Below, one piece after another: positions 24,409-41,834 of a DNA stretch of 64,000 nt; position 1 is the stretch's first letter, and every line of letters starts with the position of its first letter. Source of the stretch: a gamma proteobacterium HTCC2207 (GTDB taxonomy: Bacteria; Pseudomonadota; Gammaproteobacteria; Pseudomonadales; Porticoccaceae); NCBI GenBank assembly GCA_905182855.1, contig CAJJDA010000004.1, positions 1 through 64,000 on the forward strand, read 5' to 3'. Below the pieces are notes generated by a model. That model worked only from the letters and a program-made list of their open reading frames with translations. It was not told the origin of the DNA and searched no databases. The position numbers and the translations under genes were made by a program.

Positions 24409-24451
24409 AAAGGGACTACTCTATATACTAGAGATAATCTAGGAGTTGGTT

Positions 24452-25708
24452 ATGACCCTTCAAAACTTAACGCGACTGCATCCGATCCGCTGGCTCAGTG
24501 GCGTCAGAATTTCTGCGTTACTATTATTAACTTTGATTAGCTCATTTTCAGGCGCCGACTCATTGACTGAACAGCAGGTCGAGTCTGACTCGATCACCGA
24601 TTATATGGAAGCTATCGACAACAGTGAAGGTCAGTTCGGCGCATACGCAACCGAGCTTTCAGAGCTGTATCTAGGCTTAGGAAATGCTCTCTATGCCGGA
24701 GAGGAATACACCGAGGCTCTTGACGCCTTTCAAAAGGGCATGCAGATTGAACGAGTCAACTATGGCCTCAGCAGCCTGTCACAGTCCCCCTATTTGTTTT
24801 CCATCGCCGATACCGAGCGCTATCTTGGTAACTGGGATAAATCACAGCAGGCACTGGAGCGTGTCTATACCATCAACAGTAAAAACTATGGCGAGGTGGA
24901 TGTGCGCATGCTCGGGGTGCTGGACAAAATCCTAGCGTGGTACATGGATAGTTACAAAGATCGCAGGCCAAAGGGCGGCTACGCTAATCTGGTAATTTCC
25001 GAGCGCATAGCCCAGCGCATGTATGAAATCCTGAACAAGGATATGTCGCTGGATGATCCAGAGGCCCCTGATCGCTTTCGTCGCTTAGGTTACCTGCAAC
25101 ATGTTATTGCGGTTCACCTGAAGGAACACGGCGAGCCATCTGAGTCAGGTCTGAGTATTTCTATGTCTGGTTCCTCAGGTCGACCCAGCAAAGCAACTAC
25201 CTCGCATTTACACTTTCGCAGAGGCAAGTTAGCCTTAGAAAAAGTGATTGCTTCTGTGATCCAGCAGCCCAACAGTACTGAAACTGACCAAGCGCTTGCC
25301 ATTGCTGAACTTGGTGACTGGTATTTAGTGTTTGGTCAAAAAGCTCCAGCCACTGCAGCCTATCAGCTTGCTCTAGATGTACTGGAAACCTCCGAGGATC
25401 CCGAGCAAACCCGCGAGGACCTATTTGGCCTGCCTAGGATGATAGAGTTCAGTATGACTAAAAGCCCGCCAATGGCCGCCGGCGACCAGCCTACAGAATC
25501 ACAACTTGAACTAGCAATGATCATATCCACCTACGGAGTCCCCAACAACATTGAGGTAGTCAATCCGCCCGAGAGTCTCAGCAAAGAGGCATTGCGTGAT
25601 ATACGCAGAGACACCCGCGGAAAGCGCTTTAGACCGAAACTGGTTAATGGATTAGCCGAAGAAGCACCCTACCGCATGCTGTATGATCAACCGATACCAA
25701 AAGGCTAA
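24452..25708 (+). CDS. TPR-like exported protein with TonB C-terminal-like end (cluster gene 1)
   Basis: First gene of the envelope cluster; no described function known to me. ATG 24452 has a strong ribosome site AGGAG (24441) and opens a signal or anchor (MTLQNLTRLH...ISALLLLTLISSFSG). Residues 60-150 look like tetratricopeptide helices (ELYLGLGNALYAGEEYTEALDAFQKG, YLFSIADTERYLGNWDKSQQAL). The last 70 residues (MIISTYGVPNNIEVV, ALRDIRRDTRGKRFRPKLVNG) follow the beta-alpha-beta pattern of TonB C-terminal domains, where a periplasmic transducer contacts an outer-membrane partner. I infer a periplasmic scaffold. It is followed after only 3 bp by the next gene. Confidence 0.6.
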   Translation: MTLQNLTRLHPIRWLSGVRISALLLLTLISSFSGADSLTEQQVESDSITDYMEAIDNSEGQFGAYATELSELYLGLGNALYAGEEYTEALDAFQKGMQIERVNYGLSSLSQSPYLFSIADTERYLGNWDKSQQALERVYTINSKNYGEVDVRMLGVLDKILAWYMDSYKDRRPKGGYANLVISERIAQRMYEILNKDMSLDDPEAPDRFRRLGYLQHVIAVHLKEHGEPSESGLSISMSGSSGRPSKATTSHLHFRRGKLALEKVIASVIQQPNSTETDQALAIAELGDWYLVFGQKAPATAAYQLALDVLETSEDPEQTREDLFGLPRMIEFSMTKSPPMAAGDQPTESQLELAMIISTYGVPNNIEVVNPPESLSKEALRDIRRDTRGKRFRPKLVNGLAEEAPYRMLYDQPIPKG

Positions 25709-25711
25709 ATC

Positions 25712-26503
25712 ATGAATACGAAATTTTCTCTTAGAGCCACAGCCCGGCCATCTGCACGATCGATAATCACAGCCCTAGCCGTGCTTTTTTGTTTGAGTGC
25801 TTGCCAAATGCCCTCACCGGCGAGCTCTTCAGGTCAATCAGGGTCGCCAAGTGGCGGCATGCCCTCACCGCCCAGCGGTGGCGGTGCCCCGAGCAGCGGC
25901 TCTCCGTCAACTAGCCCTTCATCACCGAGCAGTTCTGGAGGGAACGAGCCGGCAGAAGGCGGGGCAGAAGCGTCTGGAGACTCAGTAGGCGAAAGCGGCA
26001 GCCCCCAAGGCGGGGATGACGGTGGTATCGATGGCTCAGAGGGTGAAAGCATCGAAGGGCTAGACGCAGAACTGGACGCCTCTTTAGAAGGCTTCGATGA
26101 CAGCGTCGGAGGCAGTTCCTCACAGGGCCCTAGCGAAATAGATATACTGAGTCCCAGTGGCTCGAGCGGTGTTACCTTGGGCACAGATGAGCCACTCTTT
26201 GAGGAAGCTGACAGCGGCATACCTAATGTAGGTAATGCTGAGGCCGAACAGGCCGCTCAAGACAGCCCTGAGTCGCCCGATAGTGCCGAAGGGGCAGCCG
26301 ACCAATCAGACCCGCAAGGTGGAAAAATGGGTGATGGGCAACAACCGGCCGACGCTGCCGTAATCCCGATCCCCGAGGATATAGATGATGGTCAGGGTGA
26401 CGGTATTGTGCTTCGCCAACTCCGTGATGCCGCGATGCGGGAAACAGACCCTGTTCTCCGTGAAAGACTCTGGGATGAATATCGACGAATCAAAAATCAA
26501 TAG
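25712..26503 (+). CDS. Low-complexity Ser/Gly/Pro-rich lipoprotein (cluster gene 2)
   Basis: Unrecognised lipoprotein. The signal peptide ends in the lipobox LSAC (MNTKFSLR...FCLSAC). The next 60 residues are almost only Ser, Gly and Pro, followed by about 120 acidic, Gly/Ser-rich residues; both are likely disordered and could span periplasm or decorate the surface. The only ordered part seems to be the C-terminal helix RQLRDAAMRETDPVLRERLWDEYRRIKNQ, rich in charged residues and probably a docking helix. It starts 3 bp after gene 1. The third gene's frame overlaps its end, but I place that gene's start after this stop. No enzymatic role is suggested. Confidence 0.6.
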   Translation: MNTKFSLRATARPSARSIITALAVLFCLSACQMPSPASSSGQSGSPSGGMPSPPSGGGAPSSGSPSTSPSSPSSSGGNEPAEGGAEASGDSVGESGSPQGGDDGGIDGSEGESIEGLDAELDASLEGFDDSVGGSSSQGPSEIDILSPSGSSGVTLGTDEPLFEEADSGIPNVGNAEAEQAAQDSPESPDSAEGAADQSDPQGGKMGDGQQPADAAVIPIPEDIDDGQGDGIVLRQLRDAAMRETDPVLRERLWDEYRRIKNQ

Positions 26504-26522
26504 CACAGGCTCGATAACAACG

Positions 26523-27755
26523 ATGATGAAAAAGACCGAATCAATCAGTGCGCGCAATACACTGTTACTAAACGCGCCCAGTCTAGCCGCAGTGCTGCTT
26601 GGACTGCTGGTCAGTGTTGTGACACCCCAAACTGCCACCGCTGGAATCGATAAGGTGACATCGTCGACAGCCTTACCGCTGAAAACACCCTCCGCGCCAA
26701 TTGCCGATGCCGCCTTATTAGATGTCGGCATTACGCCATTGAATGATGGACTAGATCTCACTGATGAAGATGACACGGTATTTCCAGAGGTCCGTTTTGC
26801 CGAGGCCATTTATTTTTCTAACCAGCTGGCTAAAGTGATGGAAAAAAGCGGCGCCTGGGGTGCGATAAGGGTGACACCCAGCGACGACGTTATTACTGAT
26901 GTTTATATCAGCGGCACGATTCTGCACTCAGATGGCGAGACTATGAAGTTACAAATTACTGTCAAAGATAGCCGAGGGCAGCAGTGGATAAGTAAAAAAT
27001 ACAATCAAACCACCGGAAAGTATGCCTACGACCGTCGCCTGAAGAACCTGGCTGATCCCTTTCGAAATCTGTTTGTGCGCATCGCTAATGATATTCTCAA
27101 ATATCGCGAAAAACTAAGCCAAGAAAAAGCATTGGAGTTGCGCACCATCTCTGAACTGCGCTTTGCCAAACAGTTTTCACCAGAGGCCTTCGACGACTAT
27201 ATAGCCGAAAAACGAGACGGCATCCTAACCATTGAACGACTGCCGGCTGAGAACGACAAAATTTTGCAGCGGGTGCGCAAAATTCGTGACCGCGACTATC
27301 TATACATAGATACCATGCAAGATTACTACGACGGCTTCTCTCAACAAATGCATCTAGCCTATCAAGATTTTAGACGCTCATCCTACGAGTCAGTGGTCAA
27401 GGCGAGGCAGCTTGATCAGCAAGGAAACCGGAGAGTAGTGGCGGGTATTGGTGCAATTTTAGCCGGCATCTATGGTCGCACTGAGTCAAACACTCGTATC
27501 GGCAGAGATGCCAGTACCGCCACTGCAGCCACGGGTGGTTTTATCCTCAAATCCGGGCTCGAGAAAAAACAGCAGGCCGCCACCTACAATGAAGCAGTGG
27601 CTGAAATGGGTTCCTCACTAGAAGCCGAGATCGCACCTCAGGTGATAGAGCTCGAGGATCGCACCGTTACGCTCACAGGCACGGTTCAAGGACAGTATGA
27701 GCAGTGGCAGGCACTATTAGATAAGATCTATAAGCAGGAACGCGGTGCGCTTTAA
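26523..27755 (+). CDS. Exported protein of unknown function (cluster gene 3)
   Basis: Not recognised. I place the start at ATG 26523 (or 26526), because it opens a signal peptide (MKKTESISARNTLLLNAPSLAAVLLGLLV...ATAG) and follows the previous stop by 19 bp; the track start at 26385 would overlap gene 2. The body has an alpha/beta region (SGAWGAIRVTPSDDVITDVYISGTI, KLQITVKDSRGQQWISKKYN) that could be a small ligand-binding or oligomerisation domain, then a long charged helical stretch with VRKIRDRDYLYIDTMQDYYDGF and a glycine-rich segment (VVAGIGAILAGIYG) that may be a membrane-associated hairpin. It ends in acidic helices near the next gene, whose start it nearly touches. Confidence 0.55.
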   Translation: MMKKTESISARNTLLLNAPSLAAVLLGLLVSVVTPQTATAGIDKVTSSTALPLKTPSAPIADAALLDVGITPLNDGLDLTDEDDTVFPEVRFAEAIYFSNQLAKVMEKSGAWGAIRVTPSDDVITDVYISGTILHSDGETMKLQITVKDSRGQQWISKKYNQTTGKYAYDRRLKNLADPFRNLFVRIANDILKYREKLSQEKALELRTISELRFAKQFSPEAFDDYIAEKRDGILTIERLPAENDKILQRVRKIRDRDYLYIDTMQDYYDGFSQQMHLAYQDFRRSSYESVVKARQLDQQGNRRVVAGIGAILAGIYGRTESNTRIGRDASTATAATGGFILKSGLEKKQQAATYNEAVAEMGSSLEAEIAPQVIELEDRTVTLTGTVQGQYEQWQALLDKIYKQERGAL

Positions 27756-27765
27756 GCCAAGCCCT

Positions 27766-29202
27766 ATGAACAAGCATCCAGTACCACCTCATCCACAGCC
27801 GGCTAATACGCAGAAAATTATCATAGGCATACTGCTACTTGTGGCTGGGTTAGTCATCCTAGTATTACCCAATTTAGTCTCTAAACCCTGGATAGCAGAC
27901 ACAAGTGAGTCGGCCACCATAGGTGCAGCCAAAACCATGGTTACCCCGTCCACAGCGGCAGAAAAAACTCAGTATCGGCAGAGCTCGCAAACGGTACTGG
28001 CAACTATTATTGCGGTACGTGATCGTCTTAATAGTCAGGGTATCGAACTCTGGGCAGACTTCGAATATCGCCAAGCTATGGCCTTAATAGAACTGGGTGA
28101 CGAGCAGTATATTCAGGGCAATTACGGTGCATCTTTAGAGACTTACAAGCAGTCGCTAGGGCAACTCAGCAACCTCGAACAGCTTGGTCAGGCTCGCCTA
28201 GCTCAGGCCCTGACGGATGGTCTAAACGCGATTGAAAATGCCTCACCAGCCGACTTAAGTATTGCCGAGGATGCCGCGCAGTTGGCCGTGGCTATTGCAC
28301 CCAACAGCTCGCAGACGCAAAATCTCGCTCAGCGGACCGCCCTATTGCCGCAGGTAATTGAGCGACTTCAGGCTGGCGACAGGCTCCTGGCCAGCAAACA
28401 GTTCGAGGCCGCCAGACGCGCCTATCAGCAGGCCGCAAACCAAGATGGTCAGCATCTCAAGGCTTCTGCCGCACTGGACTCTATTGAAAAGACGATAATA
28501 GGAGAGCGTTTTCGGGACTATATGAGTGCGGGATTCAAGGCGCTGGATCAGGACAAGTTTGTCGCGGCGAATCAGGCTTTTAATAATGCGGGGAGTCTTT
28601 ACAACAGTGACCCCGCCGTCGCAAAGGCGCTGTCCCAGGTTAGAACAAGACGGTCACAGGTTGCTGTAAGCCTGAAAATGGAAGAGGCCATTGGCTATGA
28701 AAAAAAGGAACTCTGGTCTACGGCTCTAGAGATTTATCAATCTTTGTTGCTCACAGATCCCTCATTAACTGAGGCTAAAATCAGAATCATCTCGGTCAGC
28801 GTGCGAGCAAATCTGGATAATCAAATCAATGGAATCCTTGCCGACCCGTTAAAATTGGCCTCATCTAGGGTCTATCGCGAAGCCCAAAAACTGCTGCAGG
28901 ACGCCATGAGTATTAACATGCAAGGCCCCCTGTTAAGTCGCCAAATTACCGATTTAGATACCGTCTTGCGACAGTCAAGAACAGCCGTCAAGGTGGTTCT
29001 GCAGTCAGATAACCTGACCGATGTCACCCTGTTTCGTGTTAAGCAGCTAGGTACATTTGAGCGCACCTCAGTGACACTAAAGCCTGGCCGCTATGTGGCC
29101 GCAGGCAAGCGCCTTGGCTTCAAAGACGTGAGAATTGAATTCACTATTACTGGCCAACCACTGCCAGCACCGATTCTGGTAAGCTGTACCGACGCGATTT
29201 AG
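27766..29202 (+). CDS. Membrane-anchored TPR protein with PEGA-like C-terminus (cluster gene 4)
   Basis: Unrecognised inner-membrane protein. I prefer ATG 27766 over GTG 27745, giving a short proline-rich cytoplasmic start, a single membrane helix (IIIGILLLVAGLVILVLPNLV) and a large periplasmic part. Residues 60-360 are helical repeats of tetratricopeptide type (ALIELGDEQYIQGNYGASLETYKQSL; GDRLLASKQFEAARRAYQQA; AGFKALDQDKFVAANQAF). The last 80 residues (VKVVLQSDNLTDVTLFRV, LKPGRYVAAGKRLGFKDVRIEF) form a PEGA-like beta sandwich also present in the following gene. A scaffold role for assembling the cluster's complex is an inference from these repeats. Starts 10 bp after the preceding stop. Confidence 0.62.
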   Translation: MNKHPVPPHPQPANTQKIIIGILLLVAGLVILVLPNLVSKPWIADTSESATIGAAKTMVTPSTAAEKTQYRQSSQTVLATIIAVRDRLNSQGIELWADFEYRQAMALIELGDEQYIQGNYGASLETYKQSLGQLSNLEQLGQARLAQALTDGLNAIENASPADLSIAEDAAQLAVAIAPNSSQTQNLAQRTALLPQVIERLQAGDRLLASKQFEAARRAYQQAANQDGQHLKASAALDSIEKTIIGERFRDYMSAGFKALDQDKFVAANQAFNNAGSLYNSDPAVAKALSQVRTRRSQVAVSLKMEEAIGYEKKELWSTALEIYQSLLLTDPSLTEAKIRIISVSVRANLDNQINGILADPLKLASSRVYREAQKLLQDAMSINMQGPLLSRQITDLDTVLRQSRTAVKVVLQSDNLTDVTLFRVKQLGTFERTSVTLKPGRYVAAGKRLGFKDVRIEFTITGQPLPAPILVSCTDAI

Positions 29203-29291: not shown

Positions 29292-31361
29292 ATGCCCGAC
29301 GATCAAAAACAGCCTATCTTAGCAGCCGAATTCAAGCCTTTGACGGGCGCTGGCAGCAAACGAAGCCTACCCATTTCTTCCGGCATGCTCAGCCTAATAG
29401 TACTTGCCGGTTTCGGCATTATTATTATGGCGTATCTGTTCGTCGCGCGCGCAGTCGTCTTTCAAACAGTCCCTCCCGAGACTCAGATCTCTGTTAGTGG
29501 TCTATCATTTAACATCGGCGACAACTATCTGCTGCTAAGCGGTGACTATGACATTACTGCAACCGCTGACGGCTATTACCCATTAATTGAATCAATCACC
29601 GTGGGCGATGCCGCTAGCCAAGATGTTGGCGTCCAGTTGCTGCCATTACCGGGCAATCTCGCCGTTATCTCAGATTTGGAAGATATACAGGTCACTATTG
29701 ATGATCAGCCGGTCGGTACCGTTCCAGGGATCATAAAAGCTATTAGTCCGGGCATCCGCAAGATGGTCTTTAGCAAGTATCGCTATTTTCCATTGCAGCA
29801 AGAAATTGCTATCGAAGGTCGTGATAGAACCCAGTCGGTGGATATTAGTTTGCGACCCGCCTGGGGCGCAATGCAGTTAACGTCTGAACCCACCGCTGCC
29901 CAAGTCTATATTGACGACCGCCTTGTGGGTCAAACACCCCTAAGTACTGAAGTCTTAGAAACGGGCAGTCGGTTAAAGCTGGTCCTCGCGGGTTATAAGA
30001 CCTACCAGCAGGAGATTTTAGTCAAGGCGGGCACCAGTGTCACACATCCTCCCATTAAGCTAATCGTTGCCGACGGTCTGCTGCAGTTGAGCAGTACGCC
30101 GTCGGGTGCGAGTATCACAGTCAATAATGAATTTGTTGGCAGCACACCAATGACGCTGGCCATGGCGCCATTTAAGCAACATCGCCTGGCGTTCTTTTTG
30201 GAAGGCTATTTAAAAACCACAACAGCAGCGACATTAAAACCGGAGAAAACCACCGTATTAGCTGTTGATCTAGTGCCCAATATCGGCAGTATCGCCTTAA
30301 CTATTAGCCCCAAAGGGGCCCGTGTTTTGGTCGATAATCGCTACCAGGGAGATGGTGACCGCACCCTGTCCCTAACTGCAAAACCCCATCGGCTCAGTAT
30401 TGAAAAATCTGGCTATCAGACAAAATCGCTCTCCGTGATACCTAGGCCCGGACATGAACAGGCACTGAGTATCAAACTGCTAACATTGCAGGAAGCCTAC
30501 TGGGCTTCTCGGCCCCCAGCGATCCAGTCCTCGGTGGGTTCACCGCTTGCATTATTCCGTCCCCAACAGAGCTTTACTATGGGTGCACCGCGACGACAGC
30601 CCGGCCGTCGTGCGAATGAAGTGGAACGCAGAGTGAGTTTGGATAGACCCTTTTATCTCGGTACACGAGAAATCAGTAATGCCGAATATCGCAGCTGGAA
30701 ATCAAGCCATAGCTCCTCAGCACTGCAGGGCCAAACATTGGACAGAGACCGACAGCCTGTTGCCGGTCTTACTTGGGAAGATGCCGCGCTGTATTGCAAC
30801 TGGTTGAGCCGCCGCGAGGGTCTGCCGCTGTTTTACCGCATGGAGAACGGTGTGGTCAATGGATTCAACTGGGACGCTCACGGTTATCGCCTGCCCACCG
30901 AGGCTGAATGGGCCTGGGCAGCAAGAGTTAACACAGACGGCAGCAGTCAGACCCTGCCCTGGGTCAATGGCCTCTATCCACCAACCGATGTCGTTGATAA
31001 TTATGCCGATCGGAGTGCTTCGAGACTCATTCCATTCACTATCGCTAGCTATAATGACCTGACACCCGCGTCAGCAGTCGTAGGTAGCTTTAAACCTAAT
31101 GGCAAAGGCCTTTACAATATGAGTGGCAATGTCTCTGAGTGGGTGAATGACTTCTATGACGTGCGTCCCAATCGCGGTGAATCCAGCGCCGATCCCACCG
31201 GACCAATAACCGGTGTCGCCCATGTTATCCGCGGTGCGAGCTGGGCGCTGGGGTCACGTACTGAATTGCGCCTGAGTTATCGTGAAGCCGGCACCGACAA
31301 ACGTCTGGATGTTGGCTTCAGAATCGCTCGTTATGTTGACAGTCTAGGAGCTAAGCCATGA
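29292..31361 (+). CDS. PEGA-repeat protein fused to a formylglycine-generating-enzyme-like domain (cluster gene 5)
   Basis: Two-part inner-membrane protein. A cytoplasmic start and one helix (residues 30-53, MLSLIVLAGFGIIIMAYLFVA) lead to at least four PEGA-type beta domains, recognisable by lines such as LTSEPTAAQVYIDDRLVGQTPL, LSSTPSGASITVNNEFVGSTPM and ISPKGARVLVDNRYQGDG. From about residue 425 it has a SUMF1/FGE-sulfatase domain (FTMGAP, REISNAEY, GYRLPTEAEWAWAAR, NMSGNVSEWVND, HVIRGASWALGSRTELRLSYRE, VGFRIAR). Catalytic FGE uses two cysteines in the last strand region; here that stretch has none, so it is probably a binding domain and not a formylglycine maker. Overlaps the next gene in ATGA. 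Confidence 0.78.
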   Translation: MPDDQKQPILAAEFKPLTGAGSKRSLPISSGMLSLIVLAGFGIIIMAYLFVARAVVFQTVPPETQISVSGLSFNIGDNYLLLSGDYDITATADGYYPLIESITVGDAASQDVGVQLLPLPGNLAVISDLEDIQVTIDDQPVGTVPGIIKAISPGIRKMVFSKYRYFPLQQEIAIEGRDRTQSVDISLRPAWGAMQLTSEPTAAQVYIDDRLVGQTPLSTEVLETGSRLKLVLAGYKTYQQEILVKAGTSVTHPPIKLIVADGLLQLSSTPSGASITVNNEFVGSTPMTLAMAPFKQHRLAFFLEGYLKTTTAATLKPEKTTVLAVDLVPNIGSIALTISPKGARVLVDNRYQGDGDRTLSLTAKPHRLSIEKSGYQTKSLSVIPRPGHEQALSIKLLTLQEAYWASRPPAIQSSVGSPLALFRPQQSFTMGAPRRQPGRRANEVERRVSLDRPFYLGTREISNAEYRSWKSSHSSSALQGQTLDRDRQPVAGLTWEDAALYCNWLSRREGLPLFYRMENGVVNGFNWDAHGYRLPTEAEWAWAARVNTDGSSQTLPWVNGLYPPTDVVDNYADRSASRLIPFTIASYNDLTPASAVVGSFKPNGKGLYNMSGNVSEWVNDFYDVRPNRGESSADPTGPITGVAHVIRGASWALGSRTELRLSYREAGTDKRLDVGFRIARYVDSLGAKP

Positions 31362-31630: not shown

Positions 31631-32437
31631 ATGAATACTTCAACCAATCGTGCCAGTAACGAGATGTTTTTCCAGTTAACCGCCCTTTTACTGGCTATCA
31701 TTATTGTCCACATTATTTTTGTTACCGTGGTCCGACCCAACGCTGACAGCACCATTCGCCAGCATGCGGAAATGGTCGCAGCCGGTGAAGAATATCAGGT
31801 GCCACGCTCATTTTTTATTGTCATTAAAGATCTAGAACAGGAAGCCTGCTTTATTCTGATGTTTTGGTCGCTAGCCATTATGGGTTACAAAACCCGCACC
31901 ACGATTCGCGAACAACGCATGCTAAATCAACCACTAATATCGATTGCCGAAGGCTCCAGAATACTGCCTGATGATGCATCACAGCTTACACGCCCACTAC
32001 AATCACTAGCCGATGAAGAACGCAGCTATCTGTTACCTAGAGCCTTGAATACCGCCCTTAGCCGCTTTCAGGTTACCGAAAGTGTGCAGTTTGCCACCGA
32101 AGCAGTGAGCAGTGTCTGCGCCACAGAAAATGATCGCCTCGACTCAGAACTCTCCATGGTGCGTTACATTACTTGGGCTATTCCATCCATTGGCTTTATT
32201 GGCACCGTGCGCGGTATCGGTGCGGCATTGGGCCAAGCTCACGAAGCTATTGCTGGTGATATTGCTGGCGTCACGAGCAGTCTCGGCGTGGCCTTTAACT
32301 CGACGTTTATTGCCCTTTTAATAAGTATGGTCGTGATGTTTTTTATGCATCAATTACAGCTCTCGCAAGAACGGCTAGTACTCGACTCTCAGTCCTATTG
32401 CGAAAATAATTTGCTGCGCTTTTTAAAAGCGAAATAG
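31631..32437 (+). CDS. MotA/TolQ/ExbB-family proton-channel protein (cluster gene 7)
   Basis: Inner-membrane protein of the MotA/TolQ/ExbB superfamily, which forms a pentamer around two copies of a one-helix partner and lets ion flow drive movement. Four hydrophobic helices lie at about residues 13-34, 72-86, 179-200 and 216-239. The third and fourth carry the family signature: AIPSIGFIGTVRGIGAAL and SSLGVAFNSTFIALLISMVVMFF. A cytoplasmic region of about 90 residues separates helices two and three, as in TolQ. No separate ExbD/TolR gene is present; the two VWA proteins downstream have an ExbD-like helix and are the obvious partners. Ion specificity (proton or sodium) cannot be told. Confidence 0.85.
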   Translation: MNTSTNRASNEMFFQLTALLLAIIIVHIIFVTVVRPNADSTIRQHAEMVAAGEEYQVPRSFFIVIKDLEQEACFILMFWSLAIMGYKTRTTIREQRMLNQPLISIAEGSRILPDDASQLTRPLQSLADEERSYLLPRALNTALSRFQVTESVQFATEAVSSVCATENDRLDSELSMVRYITWAIPSIGFIGTVRGIGAALGQAHEAIAGDIAGVTSSLGVAFNSTFIALLISMVVMFFMHQLQLSQERLVLDSQSYCENNLLRFLKAK

Positions 32438-32440
32438 ATC

Positions 32441-33709
32441 ATGACTATAGCCATCTTGGAATTAAACGATCAGGCTTTGCTGATTCAAACGGAGGAGGGT
32501 CGGTCACATATTGAGCCCGGTTTTGCTAGTGTTACTCCCTCAGGTATTGAAAGTGGCGACAAAGCCTGGGCCATGGCATGGCAAAACCCGCAAGACTGTT
32601 TCAATCAATACTGGCGACAACTGAACCAGCTGCCTCTGCCAAGAAAAACAAACTGGGCGCGGCACCATGGCGACATAGCCTATGCCCAAATCAAGCATAT
32701 GCTCGAAAGTGTTGGTTCCCCCAGCAATATAATTCTGGCGGTTCCCGGCTGCTTTAATGAAGAGCAGCTAGCGCTGCTGCTAGGTTTGGCTCAGGCTATT
32801 CCGGTGCAAGTGGATGCGGTTATCGACAGCGCTCTGGCGATGAGCTTGTATGCTCAGAAGGAAACCCTCCTGCTTGATATACAGCTGCAACAGTCTGTGG
32901 TGAGTCTCATTAGCGAAATCAACGGCAACCTAGTCGTCAGTGAGCAATCAATCATTCCAGATCTTGGGATCCTATATCTCTATAACGGTGTCGCCCGACA
33001 TATTAGTGATCGCCTTATTGATGACTACCGATATGATCCATTGCATACTTCAGAGGGAGAGCAAACCATCTATGATCAGCTGCCCGCTTGGTTAAAACAG
33101 TTCGGATGGCAGAACGAACTTTCGATCAACCTGCCGTCGCCGCGCGGTGATCTACCTATGATATTGCATAGAAAACAAGTCGCCCTAATTATTGAGCAGC
33201 GTCTGGAGAGTCTTAACAACATTATTGAAAAACATCCCAATACGCAAATCACCTTGGCTCATAGCGCCAGTTTATTGCAAGCGATACTGCCCAGGTTTGC
33301 CGGCGCCTTGGTCATGTCACAGACCAGTGGTGTTGATAACTGCCTAACCGCTCGTCGAGAGATTATCGCTAGTAGCGAAACCTTGCACAAAATAATCAGT
33401 TTAGAAAAAGCGGGTGGGAAATCGAATAATCTCCAACCAAAGCCTCGCTGCGCTAGCCACCTGTTGTATCAGAATCAGGCCTGGTCGCTGGACAAGCCGC
33501 TCAGCATAAACCTGCAAGACGGCGAGCTCATTCTGACTAACAGTATTGATAAGAATGCCGCACTAGTGGTGGTTATTAAAGATCAGTCACTGCAGATAAT
33601 CCATCAGTCAGACACCATTGATACGCAGATACCACGGACCTGTGAGCCGGGACAAAGATTCGTATTAGCCGGACATAAACTGAGTTTTATTGAGGTCAGC
33701 AATGCCTAA
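32441..33709 (+). CDS. Actin/Hsp70-fold-like protein (cluster gene 8)
   Basis: Cytoplasmic protein of 422 aa without a named family that I can assign. It has elements of the actin-like ATPase fold: an N-terminal strand-turn (MTIAILELNDQALLIQ) in the position of phosphate-1, then IILAVPGCFNEEQLALLLGLAQ...VDAVIDSALAMSLYA, closely matching the Hsp70/PilM pattern of a VPxxF strand, helix and alanine-rich turn, then a second phosphate-like turn (TLLLDIQLQQSVVSLI). These motifs are loose, with few of the expected glycines, so nucleotide binding may be lost. The last 60 residues are beta-rich and could be an FHA-like domain. It lies 3 bp after the TolQ-like gene. Confidence 0.55.
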   Translation: MTIAILELNDQALLIQTEEGRSHIEPGFASVTPSGIESGDKAWAMAWQNPQDCFNQYWRQLNQLPLPRKTNWARHHGDIAYAQIKHMLESVGSPSNIILAVPGCFNEEQLALLLGLAQAIPVQVDAVIDSALAMSLYAQKETLLLDIQLQQSVVSLISEINGNLVVSEQSIIPDLGILYLYNGVARHISDRLIDDYRYDPLHTSEGEQTIYDQLPAWLKQFGWQNELSINLPSPRGDLPMILHRKQVALIIEQRLESLNNIIEKHPNTQITLAHSASLLQAILPRFAGALVMSQTSGVDNCLTARREIIASSETLHKIISLEKAGGKSNNLQPKPRCASHLLYQNQAWSLDKPLSINLQDGELILTNSIDKNAALVVVIKDQSLQIIHQSDTIDTQIPRTCEPGQRFVLAGHKLSFIEVSNA

Positions 33710-34757
33710 GAAGCGCCGCAATATAGCCTTTAGTTTGTCCTTTTTGGACATCATGGCCTGCGGCTTTGGCGCGGTGACTCTGCTGTTTTTAATTCTGCGC
33801 CACAATGCCACCGAAATTCAAACACCTGATGTGAGACTGTCTGCAGAAGTCAATATGCTGCTTATGGATATCCGTCAGGCCGATGCGGAAAAAACTCTGC
33901 TACTAAACAGTCTTGAACAGATAGATTTAGAATTGGTTAAGGCTCAGGGTCTTTCTGATCGAGTACTCACCGATTTACAGGAAACTGAAAAAAGTATCCA
34001 GTCCGATCCCAATGAGATGGATAAGCTGCGACTTCAGGTCGAAAAACTTGAAGATGAAACCGCCCAAATGGAGGAGGTAGAATTCGGCGATAGGGTGAGG
34101 GAGTTTGTTGGTGATGGTAATCGGCAATATCTTACCGGCCTCAAATTAGGCGGTGAGCGCGTCCTCATTTTGGTTGATGGCTCCGCCAGTATGCTTGCCG
34201 ACACTGTTGTAAATGCAGTGCGTAGACGCAATATGGATGACGAACAAAAAAAGCAGTCACCAAAATGGCAGTGGACATTGCGCACGGTAGAATGGTTGGT
34301 CGCGCAGCTTCCCGCGAGCAGCCGCTTTCAAATCTATATCTTTAATATCAGTGCCGAGCCCGCTCTGATAGATTCAAAGGGAGAATGGCTTGATGCGGCA
34401 GACTCGCTAGTCATGGAAGAGGCCATTGCTGGTCTGAGACAGTATTCGCCTGGGTCGGGGACCAGTTTAACCAATGGCTTTGGCGCCATCGCCGATTTTG
34501 AAGATCGTCCAGATAATGTTTTTTTACTCACTGATGGTCTGCCAACACAGGGTAAAAATCCACCGAAGAAATACATGGTTAGCGGTGGCCAGCGACGCAG
34601 TTACTTTTTGGCGGCAATGAAAGAGTTCCCTCGGGGAGTGCCGCTGAATACTATTTTATTTCCCATGGAGGGAGACCCTGAAGCTGCGGCGTTGTTCTGG
34701 CAGACAGCCCTAGACACCGATGGTGCCTTTATTGCGCCATCTAGAGACTGGCCATGA
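33702..34757 (+). CDS. VWA-domain protein with ExbD/MotB-like membrane helix (cluster gene 9)
   Basis: Single-pass inner-membrane protein. Start ATG 33702 (MPKKRRNIAF) has GAGGT upstream and overlaps the previous gene by 8 bp. The helix SFLDIMACGFGAVTLLFLIL carries an aspartate (D16) near its start, where ExbD, TolR and MotB carry the channel aspartate. A coiled coil follows (residues 45-130), then a von Willebrand A domain from about residue 150 with a complete metal-dependent adhesion site: DGSAS, GTSLTNG and LLTDGLP. VWA domains bind a partner protein through a metal ion. It probably replaces the peptidoglycan- or TonB-binding part of a MotB/ExbD stator subunit with a protein-binding head. 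Confidence 0.78.
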   Translation: MPKKRRNIAFSLSFLDIMACGFGAVTLLFLILRHNATEIQTPDVRLSAEVNMLLMDIRQADAEKTLLLNSLEQIDLELVKAQGLSDRVLTDLQETEKSIQSDPNEMDKLRLQVEKLEDETAQMEEVEFGDRVREFVGDGNRQYLTGLKLGGERVLILVDGSASMLADTVVNAVRRRNMDDEQKKQSPKWQWTLRTVEWLVAQLPASSRFQIYIFNISAEPALIDSKGEWLDAADSLVMEEAIAGLRQYSPGSGTSLTNGFGAIADFEDRPDNVFLLTDGLPTQGKNPPKKYMVSGGQRRSYFLAAMKEFPRGVPLNTILFPMEGDPEAAALFWQTALDTDGAFIAPSRDWP

Positions 34758-35743
34758 GAAAGCAGCGTAGAGAATTACAGGAGGCGAACGTCTCATTTCT
34801 TGATGTTATTAGCTGCGGCTTTGGCGCTATTGTATTACTGTTGATAATCGCTCGAGTCGGTGATCCCGCAGCATTAGAGGAGGCCGACAATCAATTAATG
34901 GGGTCTGTAAAAGAGTATCAGGAGCGACTATTTGAAATACGTGGTGAATCGGTGGTACTTGACGAGCGTTTAAAGTCGCGCCAAGAGCAACTGTCAGAAC
35001 TGACTGAACGCATTGCGCGACTCAAAGCAAAACTCGCCAGCGTCTCGAAGCAGTCCAGTCAGCTATCTCAGTCACAGTCTCGGGAAAAACAGCAGCTCCA
35101 ACTGGTACTACAGGTGCTGTCAGAAGAAATGGAACGGCTGCTGGGACCCGATTTCCAGCGTCAAAATGACCTGGTTGGCGGTATCCCTGCGGACAGTGAC
35201 TATATTATTTTTGTCATAGATACATCTGGTAGTATGCAGATAGCAGCCTGGGAAAAAGTCAAAAAAGAGATGCTCAATATTTTGGATATTTATCCAGAGG
35301 TCAAGGGGATACAGGTACTCAATGATATGGGCCAGTATATGTTTAGCGGCTATAGTAACAAGTGGATCCCTGACAGCCCCGCCATGCGTAAGAACATTAT
35401 CAAGACATTAGCTAGCTGGTCGCCCTTTAGTAATTCTAGCCCAGTGGAAGGTATTAATACCGCTATTCAAGCCTTTTACAAACCAGGCCGAAAAATCAGT
35501 ATTTATACTCTGGGGGACGATTATCAGGGACGCTCCATACGCAGCGTAGTCAAGGCAGTGGATCGACTTAATAAAGCTAACCGAGGCGCTAAACGGCTAG
35601 TACGCATTCATGCAATCGGGTTTCCAGTGCACTTCCCTCCAGGGGGGACACCCAGCGCATCGGCAATAAAGTTTGCCGCACTGATGCGCGAACTTAGTTA
35701 CAACAATGGAGGAACCTTTATCGGCTTAAATAGCCTCAACTAA
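34754..35743 (+). CDS. Second VWA-domain protein with ExbD/MotB-like membrane helix (cluster gene 10)
   Basis: Paralogue of the preceding VWA gene, coupled to it by an ATGA overlap. It has the same near-identical membrane segment SFLDVISCGFGAIVLLLIIA with an aspartate at position 17, then a long coiled coil (residues 40-125, rich in Glu, Gln and Leu), then a VWA domain with the MIDAS start DTSGS near residue 155 and the later TLGDDYQG turn. The C-terminal part has a small insert (PVHFPPGGTPS) before the last helix. The pair could form a hetero-dimer inside the TolQ-like pentamer, as ExbD dimers do. Order TolQ-like, actin-like, VWA, VWA supports a shared complex. Confidence 0.76.
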   Translation: MRKQRRELQEANVSFLDVISCGFGAIVLLLIIARVGDPAALEEADNQLMGSVKEYQERLFEIRGESVVLDERLKSRQEQLSELTERIARLKAKLASVSKQSSQLSQSQSREKQQLQLVLQVLSEEMERLLGPDFQRQNDLVGGIPADSDYIIFVIDTSGSMQIAAWEKVKKEMLNILDIYPEVKGIQVLNDMGQYMFSGYSNKWIPDSPAMRKNIIKTLASWSPFSNSSPVEGINTAIQAFYKPGRKISIYTLGDDYQGRSIRSVVKAVDRLNKANRGAKRLVRIHAIGFPVHFPPGGTPSASAIKFAALMRELSYNNGGTFIGLNSLN

Positions 35744-35757
35744 AGGACTAATAACTT

Positions 35758-36408
35758 ATGCTAACGATAACTATGAAATCATTCGCCGCGCTGTTCGCCT
35801 TATTCATCCTTGGTGGTTGTAGTTCCTCGGCCTCGGTGCAGTTAACCGGCGACTTTCCAAAGGTCCTAGCAAAGCCGAAGCCGCTCAGTGCCGCGGTGGT
35901 GTTTGAACCTAGCTTTGCCACCTATATAGCGCAGCCCAATGCTAAAACAGTCATAGATATGGGTGCAGCTCAGGTGCGGCTGCTGCGCAATGCTTTTGCC
36001 GGTTTATTTGGTCGCCTCGAGTTTGTCGGCAGCAGAGAAGAGATTACCATCGATAATGCTATGGTCATTATTCCCTCTGTGCGTGAAGTACAGGTGTCCA
36101 CGCCATCTGAAAACTACCAGAATGTCTTCGAGGTATGGATTAAATATAACCTAGATCTTGAATCCACAGCGGGCGAATCTATCGACAGTTGGTTTATGCC
36201 CGCCTACGGCAAAACACCGGATGCCTTCATGGCCTCAAAGAGTGATGCTATTGAGCAGGCGGCAATCAGCGCGCTGCGCGATGCAGGCGCAAAACTAACA
36301 TTGGATTTTTATCGTATCCCTTCAGTCAACAACTGGGTGACAGAGGAGCAAGAACGGGCTAGACAGGCTAGTCTTCAGCAGTCAGACAAATCAGAGGTGT
36401 CACCATGA
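35758..36408 (+). CDS. Lipoprotein of unknown function (cluster gene 11)
   Basis: Lipoprotein with lipobox LGGC (signal MLTITMKSFAALFALFILGGC); the internal MKSF at 35773 could be the true start and gives a more typical signal. The mature 190 residues form an alpha/beta domain (VVFEPSFATYIAQ, VRLLRNAFAGLFGRLEFVGSREE, AMVIIPSVREVQVS) reminiscent in outline of LptE-like or YajG-type lipoproteins that fold as a small sandwich, but I do not recognise the family. It ends with a charged helical tail. Its stop overlaps the start of the next lipoprotein gene by four bases, so the two are probably made together and may pair at the outer membrane. Confidence 0.62.
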   Translation: MLTITMKSFAALFALFILGGCSSSASVQLTGDFPKVLAKPKPLSAAVVFEPSFATYIAQPNAKTVIDMGAAQVRLLRNAFAGLFGRLEFVGSREEITIDNAMVIIPSVREVQVSTPSENYQNVFEVWIKYNLDLESTAGESIDSWFMPAYGKTPDAFMASKSDAIEQAAISALRDAGAKLTLDFYRIPSVNNWVTEEQERARQASLQQSDKSEVSP

Positions 36409-37076
36409 GCCCTACTAACAAGTTGATCCCAGTGCTATTTGGCGTCTTCTTAGCCGGCTGCAGCGCCACCACCACCATTGATGAATATAGACCTACTGGT
36501 GAAGCCATAGAGTTAAATGTTGCCGAGCAGGTGGTGATATTAGGGCGCAGAGATGCTGGGCACTATGAAACTGACCGTGAGTTTGTTGACTGCGTCGCCA
36601 GCAAAATGCGTGGCGCAGATATTGGCATACTGCCCGAGCAAGAGTTCATCGATGCTATCTATCCCTGGTTTGAACCGCGCACCGCACCCAAGGGTCTTTC
36701 GCGCCTTAAACGCTTAATGCAGGACACCAGTATCAAAGCCGAGGTGAGTAAACGGGCGGTACGCTATCTGGTCTGGTTAGATGGTTCGACCGAAACGCTT
36801 GATTCCAGCGGTTCTATGAGCTGTGCAGTCGGCCCAGGTGGCGGTGGCTGTTTTGGTTTTGCGAAGTGGGACAAGCTATCGGTTTACGAGGCCATTGTCT
36901 GGGACCTACAAGACCTCACTGAAAAAGGGCGGGTGCGCGTCGATTCTGAGGGCACGTCATATCTGATTGGTGCGGTGGCCCCTATTCCCTTTTTATCCCC
37001 GGTAAAAGACGATGCCTGCTCTAGCCTAGGCAACCAGCTCAAGAGTTTTTTCTCTATTACACCGACAACCCAATAA
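36405..37076 (+). CDS. Lipoprotein of unknown function (cluster gene 12)
   Basis: Lipoprotein with lipobox LAGC (MSPTNKLIPVLFGVFLAGC). The mature 200 aa start with LNVAEQVVILGRRDAGHYETDREFVDCVASKMRG, a Rossmann-like or caspase-like beta-alpha opening, and later a glycine-rich turn with two cysteines, SCAVGPGGGGCFGF, which is likely to be a disulphide loop. A third Cys pair member sits at the end (DDACSSLG). No family recognised. It is coupled (overlap 4 bp) to the preceding lipoprotein and followed after 13 bp by the M48 protease gene, so a joint envelope role is likely. Confidence 0.6.
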   Translation: MSPTNKLIPVLFGVFLAGCSATTTIDEYRPTGEAIELNVAEQVVILGRRDAGHYETDREFVDCVASKMRGADIGILPEQEFIDAIYPWFEPRTAPKGLSRLKRLMQDTSIKAEVSKRAVRYLVWLDGSTETLDSSGSMSCAVGPGGGGCFGFAKWDKLSVYEAIVWDLQDLTEKGRVRVDSEGTSYLIGAVAPIPFLSPVKDDACSSLGNQLKSFFSITPTTQ

Positions 37077-37089
37077 TTAGGCCAATACC

Positions 37090-38594
37090 ATGACTTGTAT
37101 TCCTCGCCAGATAATTGCCGCCCTCCTCATCAGCTGTTTTTGGGGTGGTGGACTGGTACTTTCCGCAAATACCTGGAGCGCAGTTTCTGGTGCCGATATC
37201 TACAAGGAGGTACTTGAAGGTACCGCCATTTATGATGACCCAGTGCTGGATGCCTACATTAAGGAACTCGGGGCGGAGATTATTGCAGTGTCCGAAATGG
37301 CCGGCGAAAAATTTACCTTCACATTACTCGACTCACCTGACTTGAATGCCTTTGCCACCCGAGATAACTACATCTATGTCAATCGTGGTCTGCTTAATTA
37401 TGTTAGCAATGAAGCCCAGCTGGTTTCAGTTCTGGCGCACGAGGTAGGTCACATTACCCGAGACCATGTTACCGGCCAGGAGGGTAAAGCCACCGGTGCC
37501 CAGATGCTCTCAGCTATTGCCGCAGTATTATCGGGCAGCAACGAGGTTTATGAGGCCAGTATGGCCTATGCCAACTCAATCATTCGTGGCCACGGTCGGC
37601 GCAACGAACTGGAAGCAGACGAAGCGGGCGCTGAATATATGGCCAAGCTAGGTTACGCGCCTACCGAAATGCTCAGCATGCTGTCCATTATGAAAGACTA
37701 TGAAACCCTGCAAAAGGATCGGGCCAAAGCCAAGGGAGCATCCAAGCAGACCTATCACGGCATTTTTTCCAGTCACCCACGCAACGACAGTCGTCTGCGC
37801 ACGGTAGTCAGCTAAGGCTAACGCCGTAAAGTCCAAGAGAACAAGAGACAATGGGGCCAGTCGCTACCGCGCACTAACCGACGGCTTAGTCTGGGGCGAA
37901 AATTTTCTGGCTAAGGAACAAAAGCCGGAGCGATTCTCGAATATGCGTCTTAGGGTGCGCTTTGACTTCCCTAAAGACTGGGTCAGCAATGCCAACCCCA
38001 GTCCGTTTATGGCCAGTGGTATGCCCGCAGATAAAACCGCTGTATTAACTATGCAGCCCAATTGCTCGTACGAGTCAAAGCCCAGAGGAATACCTTTACA
38101 ATCATCTAAAGGTATCCCAGCTAACCGACGGTAAAGCTATAGCACCAGCTCGACTTAAGGGTTTCAGCGGTATTTTACCTGGCGGCGAGAACCGCTCCGA
38201 TAGCCGTATCGCCGTAATCTATTACAAGCTTAACGCATACCTATTTAGCGGCGAAATCATAGAACAAAACGCCACTGCCGAAACAGACCTCGTTTCGGAT
38301 AAAGACGTCGCAGCCGGCAAAGAGCCTTCAGAAAAACCAAAAACCTTTGCCGAAAGAGACCAGCAGTTCGTTGCCGCTATTAACACCTTTCGACCTATTT
38401 CAAGCCGCGAAATTGCTGGCCAAAAGCCAAAGACAGTACGTTATGTCAAAGCGACCCGCGCGACTACCTTTGCCAAGCTAGGCCCAGCACTTAAGCTCAA
38501 TGCGGTAGACGTGCAAGATCTGCGTATAATTAACGGCCACTATCCCAGCGGTGAGCCCAAGGCTGGGGACTGGATTAAAATATTTAAACAGTAA
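37090..38594 (+). CDS. Exported M48 family metalloprotease, two frameshifts in this sequence (cluster gene 13)
   Basis: Periplasmic M48 zinc protease related to BepA/LoiP-type envelope quality-control enzymes. The first frame (to 37815) has a signal peptide, the zinc motif HEVGHITRDH and the third ligand in ELEADEAGAEYMAKLGY. The stop in that frame is not the end: from about 37816 the next frame reads KANAVKSKRTRDNGASRYRALTDGLVWGENF..., and a second slip in a CCC run near 38085 leads to PEEYLYNHLKVSQL and on to a C-terminal LysM-like end (RATTFAKLGPALKLNAVDV) closing at TAA 38594. Removing two single bases gives 500 aa. The ORF track shows only the first part. It closes the cluster. Confidence 0.78.
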
Positions 38595-39345: not shown

Positions 39346-40110
39346 GCCATCAATGCAGCAAAGAATTTTTTCAGACCTGGAGCGCCTGACTCTTGCCAGG
39401 TTTTAAGCGCCGCAGTGCCAACGATTGCGAGGTCGGCAGAACCCCGTAAAAAGTCCATATCCTCCTTGCCACTGATACCAAAGCCGACACCGATCGGCAT
39501 ATTGGTATGCTGCCGACAGCGCTCAATCAGCGCCAAGACGTCGTCACCCATTTTGGTTTTCGACCCGGTCACGCCCTTTCGCGCGACCACATAAACCATA
39601 CCACGACTCAGGGCTCCCAGTTGCGCCAGACGTTTATCACTGCTCGTTGGAGTCATGAGAATAATCGGCTCAATACCCGCTTTCTCAGACAACTGATGCA
39701 GGTTAGCTGATTCCTCCACCGGCAAATCAGGCAAAATGTAACCGACACCGCCTGCGTCCTTGAGACGCTGCACAAAGCGCTCTTCGCCCATTTTAAAAGC
39801 GGTATTGTAGTAACCCATCATCAACACTTTAAACGGAAACCGGGCACTGACCTCGCGCATAAACTCAAAACACTGGTCTACCGTGGTGCCTGATTTTAAC
39901 GACTGTTCGTTGGCATGGGCAAACAGGGGACCATCGGCACTAGGTTCAGAGAAAGGGAAACTGTAATTCCACCAGATCAACGCCAGCTGCAGCCATTATC
40001 TCTAACGCTTGCATATTAGCCTCAAAGGAGGGGTAGCCACAGACCACATGGGCCATTACCAACAGATCTTTGTCTTTTTTGCGCTCGGCAATAAAATGCT
40101 GTAGACCCAT
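39342..40110 (-). CDS. trpA: Tryptophan synthase alpha subunit, frameshifted
   Basis: Alpha subunit that splits indole-3-glycerol phosphate to indole and glyceraldehyde 3-phosphate. The start is ATG 40110, overlapping the trpB stop by one base (TAATG): MGLQHFIAERKKDKDLLVMAHVVCGYPSFEANMQ...VDLVELQ. One extra T near 39965 then breaks the frame and the track ORF (39342-39980) resumes with FPFSEPSADGPLF. Joined, the catalytic Glu (ELQFPF) and Asp (ADGP) are both present, as is the phosphate loop VARKGVTGSKTKM. The reconstructed protein is 255 aa, a little short, and its ELQFPFSEPSADGP region differs from the standard ELGIPFSDPLADGP. Coupled with trpB. Confidence 0.88.
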
Positions 40111-41367
40111 TAGCCTCTCTCCGCACGGTATTGATCCGACTTACCTTCAACAAAAGACTTCCATTTGGCATCATCCAGGGCATCAGCAATGGTAAAGATA
40201 TCTTTATCCCCTCGTCCAGACTGATTAATCAAAATAATTTCATCTTTAGCCATAGTCGGAGCCTCTTTAAGCGCCGTTACAAAGGCGTGGGTACTTTCTA
40301 GCGCAGGGATTAACCCTTCGGTACGCATAGTCAACTTTAACGTCTCCTTGACCTCCTCATCGGTTGCCGCTTCAAAACGTACCTTGCCCTGTTCCCAGAG
40401 GTGGCTAAAGATGGGATTAATACCAATATAATCGAGGCCAGCGGCAACCGAATGTGTCTCATTCATATTGCCGTCATCGTTTTGCAAGAAATACGTTTTA
40501 TAGCCCTGAGCCACACCCACTGAGGCGTCGTCATAGGCCAGGCGAGCACCATGCATGTAGGTACCGACACCCAGACCGCCAGCCTCGACACCAATCAGCT
40601 CGACATCATCATCGAAAAAACCCTGAAAAATCCCCATAGCATTAGAGCCACCACCGACGCAGGCATAGACACGATCAGGTAATCTTCCGGTCTGCGTCAA
40701 CATCTGTTCCCGCGCTTCAAGGCCGATAATCGATTGGAACCAGCTAACCATTTCAGGGAAAGGGTGCGGGCCACAGGCGGTACCCAAAATATAATGGGTA
40801 TCTTCCATATTGGTCACCCAGTCACGCATACATTCATTAATAGCGTCTTTGAGCGTCTTCTGGCCATCCTGCACGGCGATAACCTCTGCCCCGAGGTTTT
40901 CCATCCAGAAAACATTGGGGCGTTGCCGCGCGACATCGACGGCACCCATATAGATTTTACAGTCAAAACCAAAGCGCGCGGCCATTGTTGCCGTGGCAAA
41001 CCCGTGCTGTCCGGCACCCGTCTCAGCTATCACCTTGCGCTTACCTAGGCGTCTCGCACAGCAGGCCCTGTCCCATGACATTATTAATCTTGTGGGAACC
41101 TGTGTGATTCAGATCGTCGCGTTTTACATAAATCTGCGCGCCACCCAGTTGCCTAGACAGATTTTCCAGATGCGTCACCGGAGTCGGGCGACCTGAATAG
41201 TTTTGCAGTAGCCTGACATAGTCCTGCCAAAATTTAGGGTCTGCTTTGCATTCACGAAAGCACAGCAGCAGCTCCTCGATCGTTGCATGCAGAATCTCAG
41301 GTAGAAAAACGCCACCGTATTCTCCGTAGTAGCCTTCGCGGCCGTCGGAGAAGTCAAAAATATCCAT
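40110..41367 (-). CDS. trpB: Tryptophan synthase beta subunit, frameshifted
   Basis: PLP enzyme that condenses indole with serine to tryptophan. Start ATG 41367 (MDIFDFSDGREGYYGEYGG) has a strong GAGGA 6 bp upstream; the track start (TTG 41379) is less likely. The first frame contains the PLP lysine in HTGSHKINN and ends just after VMGQGLL; the second (40110-41081) continues ARRLGKRKVIAETGAGQHG with the serine-activation glutamate, then CVGGGSNAMGIF for phosphate binding and the end LINQSGRGDKDIF. One extra base near 41052 separates them, so a sequence error is likely. Joined length is 418 aa. It forms a trpBA operon with no trpF, C or D in the window. Confidence 0.92.
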
Positions 41368-41595
41368 GAAAATCCTCAATAAATCGTGGCAGTTTCCCCA
41401 AAGGAAACCCGTTTGTGAAATAAATAACGTTAAAGGTCTATTTTAGCCAACTCCTTGCATTGGCACAATGTTACCGCTGCGGCGTTCCCTCTAATTAAGG
41501 CAATTTCGGGTGTATACGGCCATAATCTGTAATCGGCTTGTCGCACTAAGAGAGTTATTTGATCAACCCCAGAAGTCACGCTGGACTAGGCCGGG

Positions 41596-41702: not shown

Positions 41703-41834
41703 ACTCTTCGCCGTAGTCAAGAATAAAAAAGCATCAAACAAGGGTACATTTAATTATAGGGACGTCTTAAATATACATAAATTTGGCCTCAGAACCGCTA
41801 GGTACCTGAGTTGAAAAAGAAAGAAGGTCAGTCA

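Follow-up and report, generated by a model that had tools for sequence, protein, structure and literature searches.

A probable pseudo-Hsp70 protein with an FHA-like C terminus as a plausible cytoplasmic partner of an ion-driven motor in gammaproteobacteria

The window, the whole 64,000-nucleotide stretch of DNA from the gamma proteobacterium HTCC2207 analyzed here, contains an operon of ∼12 genes, all on the forward strand, in an order that is conserved across several families. It begins with a TPR protein that is probably exported (positions 24446 to 25708; TPR_12, E = 9e-13) and that also shows a weak TonB C-terminal match at residues 342 to 409 (E = 0.034). Next come a low-complexity probable lipoprotein, recognized as an ORF conserved in the operon (25712 to 26503); a conserved protein of the operon that gives no Pfam match above the cutoff, is probably a lipoprotein or secreted, and likely starts further in (26385 to 27755); and a TPR-like protein with an N-terminal transmembrane helix, also conserved in the operon (27745 to 29202). 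The fifth gene encodes a protein with one N-terminal transmembrane helix in which Pfam recognizes PEGA repeats and an FGE-sulfatase (SUMF1-like) domain (29292 to 31361). In NCBIfam, the FGE-like domain comes closest to GldK/PorK, a component of the type 9 secretion ring (E = 4e-27, falling far short of the cutoff), which is another FGE-type protein beside an ion-driven motor. The MotA/TolQ/ExbB-type channel of 268 amino acids (31631 to 32437; PF01618, E = 1.7e-13), with conserved residues T192 and T225, is followed by the protein considered here, ACT, and by two von Willebrand factor A-type proteins.

The first of these, VWA1 (33702 to 34757), consists of a short basic tail, one transmembrane helix, a coiled coil, and a VWA domain with the MIDAS-type DxSxS, T, and D residues; VWA2 (34754 to 35743; Pfam VWA, E = 8e-4) has the same architecture. 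The transmembrane helices of both contain an invariant Asp residue, D20 in VWA1 (numbered from 33690) and D17 in VWA2. Against the ExbD profile, the helix of VWA1 scored 13.2, which is the noise level, and that of VWA2 scored 21.0, with controls reaching 16.1. N-terminal tails preceding a single transmembrane helix are found in VWA1, VWA2, the PEGA-FGE protein, and the TPR protein. In the gammaproteobacterial version of the operon, two probable lipoprotein genes follow, recognized as ORFs and by operon conservation (35758 to 37076), and then a gene for an M48-type peptidase, identified by comparison with relatives (37090 to 37815). The latter gene is interrupted: the 480 to 500 amino acids of its relatives are spread here over three reading frames (37090 to 38560), owing either to a sequencing or assembly error or to decay. 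Further downstream, two overlapping ORFs take the place of one in both the trpB-like gene (40110 to 41379) and the ribonucleotide-reductase-like gene (41811 to 43989), a pattern suggestive of frameshift errors in the draft genome. In two loci of family f128 (L067 and L261), the channel gene has been relocated behind VWA2, and the pseudo-Hsp70 gene still precedes VWA1.

The ACT gene (32441 to 33709) runs exactly from an ATG to a stop codon in the ORF list of the window and encodes 422 amino acids. It starts 4 bp after the stop codon of the channel gene, and its 3′ end overlaps the ATG of VWA1 (33702) by 8 bp. The gene is present in 46 of 95 related genomes, counting the window's own; these relatives include marine Porticoccaceae/HTCC2207-type metagenome-assembled genomes. 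Its homologues in the relatives are mostly 26 to 70% identical, with the frame open. A class-wide sample of 274 genomes produced 12 matches; leaving out the window's own genome and a fragment with stops (G196), it added 10 further ACT-bearing genomes. At every locus with a readable neighborhood, ACT adjoins the channel gene and/or VWA1, and a search of viral contigs found no ACT relatives. Given the 46 carriers, the open frame, and a gene order shared by several families, ACT is a gene rather than a chance ORF. This confirms it as a real, conserved gene, lying between the channel and the VWA genes where an earlier note, made from the sequence alone, had placed it; the motifs quoted in that note are all present in the ACT sequence.

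The ACT sequence by itself gave no match in phmmer, Pfam, NCBIfam, or PDB searches, and the Hsp70 family (PF00012) was not detected at E ≤ 1 in any of 33 ACT members, the curated Pfam cutoff not being reached. A profile of 54 ACT homologues was scored with hhalign against 606 ORFs; these decoys come from the loci in the analysis rather than from a whole proteome. Hsp70s (DnaK and HscA) hold nearly all of the top 30 places, with scores from 51 to about 29; a single FtsA is also among them, and the best protein from outside the actin superfamily scored 26.7. Compared with a combined Hsp70 profile, the ACT profile scored 57.3 (E = 1.4e-6), with residues 9 to 264 of ACT collinear with Hsp70 residues 21 to 322; overall, the scores were 57 to 60, and an alignment of 61 ACT sequences extended the match to residue 286. 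The region of residues 2 to 290 (32444 to 33310), collinear with the nucleotide-binding domain (NBD) of DnaK in hhalign, can thus be delimited. As E-values from single hhalign pairs are rough, the argument for the Hsp70 relationship rests on the controls: the reversed profile scored 21.7 and nine other families of the operon scored at most 25.2. The profiles of other actin-superfamily members gave 18.9 (PilM, PF11104), 24.9 (FtsA), 19.0 (MreB), and 20.4 (YegD-like), so that an origin of ACT from any of these was rejected, their scores being at noise against the clear Hsp70 match. The ACT profile also retrieved Hsp70s from the PDB, only at E ∼ 1, and a structural model of whole ACT built from five sequences had a pLDDT of 32. 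The profile comparisons support assignment of the N-terminal part of ACT to the actin/Hsp70 superfamily, as the earlier note had claimed, and specifically to Hsp70 (DnaK/HscA); its PilM-like reading found no sequence support.

The nucleotide-binding motifs of this region are degenerate. The phosphate-1 loop, DLGTTNS in Hsp70, appears in ACT as ELNDQ (residues 7 to 11; 32459 to 32473); among the 54 aligned sequences, it is mostly E/D-L-N-D (E/D7 in 49, N9 in 49, D10 in 51) and has no conserved glycine. In place of the phosphate-2 loop YDLGGGTFDIS, ACT has LDIQLQQSVVS (residues 145 to 155; 32873 to 32905), with D/E146 in 54 of 54 homologues and mostly D/E-L-Q-L where DnaK has DLGGGT, the glycines being lost. 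The GG of the adenosine loop is mostly replaced by S/A/T-H. Another conserved motif, R197-x-D199-P200 (33029 to 33040), aligns near GDPLAMQRL of DnaK; R197 is invariant, and D199 and P200 are each found in 52 of 54 sequences. The degenerate glycines noticed earlier in the single sequence are therefore a property of the ACT homologues as a whole, and this erosion makes the loss of ATP binding likely, albeit not proven. Judging from the alignment, ACT is probably a pseudo-ATPase. Acidic residues remain at the positions of both phosphate-loop Asp residues, equivalent to D8 and D194 of DnaK (E/D in 49 and 54 of 54 sequences, respectively), and could reflect residual binding of a nucleotide or a metal.

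The C-terminal part of ACT shows no match to Hsp70 (score 14.3), and the substrate-binding domain is missing. Instead, residues 352 to 421 (33494 to 33703) match the FHA profile with a score of 28.5 (E = 5.5e-5), compared to 10.3 for the reversed profile and at most 18.5 for other families; real FHA proteins rank high in a half-sample of the decoys (Mann-Whitney P = 1e-5). Pfam detected FHA (PF00498) in just 1 of 33 ACT members, at E = 0.15, and the Gly-Arg...Ser...His residues that bind phosphothreonine in FHA domains are absent from the aligned ACT sequences. The earlier note had described a beta-rich, possibly FHA-like C terminus and proposed structure prediction followed by a Foldseek search. 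For the C-terminal domain, AlphaFold with five sequences produced a confident all-beta model (pLDDT of 86, 8 strands, and no helices), which bears out the first point; as to the second, Foldseek placed FHA domains at ranks 7, 11, 16, 19, and 30, all at E > 1, so that the profile support is good and the fold search only suggestive. The C terminus of ACT is probably a degenerate FHA-like domain that replaces the substrate-binding domain of Hsp70. The most basal ACT homologues, which are also the shortest (324 to 338 residues), are too short to contain it. In some relatives, the PEGA-FGE protein carries a cytoplasmic FHA-like N terminus ahead of its membrane helix (E = 1.7e-7; L250:10131-12533, L253:4770-7175, L254:10740-13148, and L068:6093-8531), both in a nested group without ACT and in some ACT carriers. 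FHA-like modules therefore recur in this motor machine.

The core motor is also found without ACT, in one family of another class and in a few gammaproteobacteria. A second ACT-less group (L236, L249 to L251, L253, L255, L264, and L265) is nested in the tree within ACT-bearing lineages, which suggests one gain and one loss of ACT, some nodes having modest support; three loci labeled negative by the score threshold in this tree (L045, L072, and L073) do carry ACT. No ACT copy was detectable elsewhere in the 21 motor-bearing ACT-less genomes, several of which are incomplete. Presumably, the motor works without ACT in those lineages. When channel positions were scanned, after looking at the data, only M84, L112, and R121 were conserved in the 54 ACT carriers and lost in both ACT-less groups. 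Residue L112 is found in 53 of the 54 channels with ACT and in none of the 21 without it, and R121 in 54 of 54 and 1 of 21, respectively; as the sequences within each ACT-less group are related, these numbers represent two contrasts rather than 21. Both residues fall in a loop of the channel that is predicted to be cytoplasmic, and the segment from L112 to R121 (31964 to 31993) is a candidate docking site by its presence pattern. The full motif LPEDxxxxxR was rejected as an ACT-specific docking motif: the nested ACT-less group keeps most of it, so that only L112 and R121 carry the link between ACT and the channel.

Several functions can be considered for such a protein. ACT might be a working Hsp70-type ATPase or chaperone with unusual loops that serves in motor assembly, as the alignment of the whole NBD and the retained acids at the D8 and D194 positions would allow. 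However, the glycine loops that hold phosphate and adenosine are gone across the homologues, the substrate-binding domain is lacking, and no gene for a DnaJ or GrpE partner was found in the operon, all of which makes this role quite unlikely. By analogy with PilM, which binds PilN, ACT might form a PilM/FtsA-like scaffold ring beneath the motor and bind the N-terminal tails offered by VWA1, VWA2, the PEGA-FGE protein, and the TPR protein. The general relation to the actin superfamily agrees with this idea, which is nevertheless unlikely, given the noise-level PilM and FtsA scores and the clear score for Hsp70; taken as a functional analogy, it would overlap with the adaptor role proposed below.

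ACT might also regulate the motor, gating or braking it in response to a phospho-signal in the cytoplasm that its FHA-like domain would read. Such a role would fit the FHA-like match of ACT and the recurrence of such modules on the PEGA-FGE protein, but it appears improbable in view of the missing phosphothreonine-binding residues. The operon as a whole could also be viewed as a Zorya-type defense against phages, with a MotA/MotB-like motor and effectors, since the channel weakly matches ZorA models (E = 1e-3). This match was the only one among five proteins scanned with PADLOC, ACT and VWA1 having none; moreover, the gene order is fixed across families and no nuclease or helicase effector was seen in the operon. 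Zorya defense (ZorA/ZorB with ZorC/D or ZorE) was accordingly rejected, and this reading is very improbable.

The core of the operon matches the TPH-vWA motor predicted in Idiomarina (PMC12204202, Fig. 4c and d; Mol Biol Evol 2025). As described there, this proton-driven TolQ-like motor is encoded by a heterologous VWA gene pair and a TolQ-like gene, with no tolR, and a 5:2 complex is predicted. ACT would then be part of a gammaproteobacterial version of TPH-vWA, in which a TolQ/MotA-type pentamer would surround two different VWA proteins as the axle. The fixed position of ACT in the operon and the co-varying channel residues make a cytoplasmic partner of the ion-driven motor plausible. The gene, its operon, the Hsp70 relationship, the motif loss, the FHA-like profile match, the distribution of ACT among the relatives, and the co-varying channel residues are observed; from these we infer for ACT a cytoplasmic location, docking, a lack of ATPase activity, and an adaptor role. 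The favored and rather likely explanation is that ACT is a nucleotide-independent adaptor, built from an eroded Hsp70 NBD fold and a degenerate FHA-like domain, that sits at the motor's inner face. The Hsp70 fold would dock on the channel loop around L112 and R121, with no need for ATP turnover, and the FHA-like domain may bind another motor part, linking the channel face to other cytoplasmic tails; alternatively to such linking, ACT might set the assembly or activity of the motor. A bolder and more tentative proposal is that a pseudo-Hsp70 has been recruited into a 5:1:1 proton-driven rotary motor, where it would serve in the cytoplasm as a fixed part for coupling or control and attach to the channel loop at a site of two residues; it would possibly be the first Hsp70-fold adaptor among MotA/TolQ/ExbB systems. 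The predicted task of VWA-axle motors is to exert a pull on the outer membrane; a dedicated cytoplasmic partner with a candidate docking site would offer a handle on them, consisting of two channel residues and one gene present or missing by lineage. If true, ACT would clearly exemplify the reuse of the Hsp70 fold as a scaffold that lacks the ATP loops.

Compared with known proteins, ACT is collinear with the NBD of Hsp70s (DnaK and HscA) over roughly residues 2 to 290 but differs from them by its eroded ATP loops, the lack of a substrate-binding domain, and the lack of a Pfam match. With FHA domains (PF00498), it shares the profile match and the beta-only model but not the phosphothreonine-binding residues, and the fold search was not significant. 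PilM of type IV pili and FtsA are likewise actin-superfamily partners of membrane machines in the cytoplasm, a likeness in function by analogy only, as neither profile is related to that of ACT above noise. The AglRQS gliding motor of Myxococcus, in the descriptions available, similarly combines one MotA-type and two MotB-type subunits and needs a cytoplasmic protein of the actin superfamily, MreB; in contrast to ACT, MreB is an actin homologue rather than an Hsp70 relative, and AglQ/S are described without a VWA domain. With the TPH-vWA motor, as far as its published description is available (PMC12204202), the window's operon shares the heterologous VWA pair beside a TolQ-like gene, with no exbD or tolR between or beside them, as well as the conserved transmembrane Asp residues of VWA1 (D20) and VWA2 (D17) and the channel residues T192 and T225. 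Whereas the available text of that paper names no Hsp70, DnaK, FHA-domain, PEGA, or formylglycine component, the operon described here has them.
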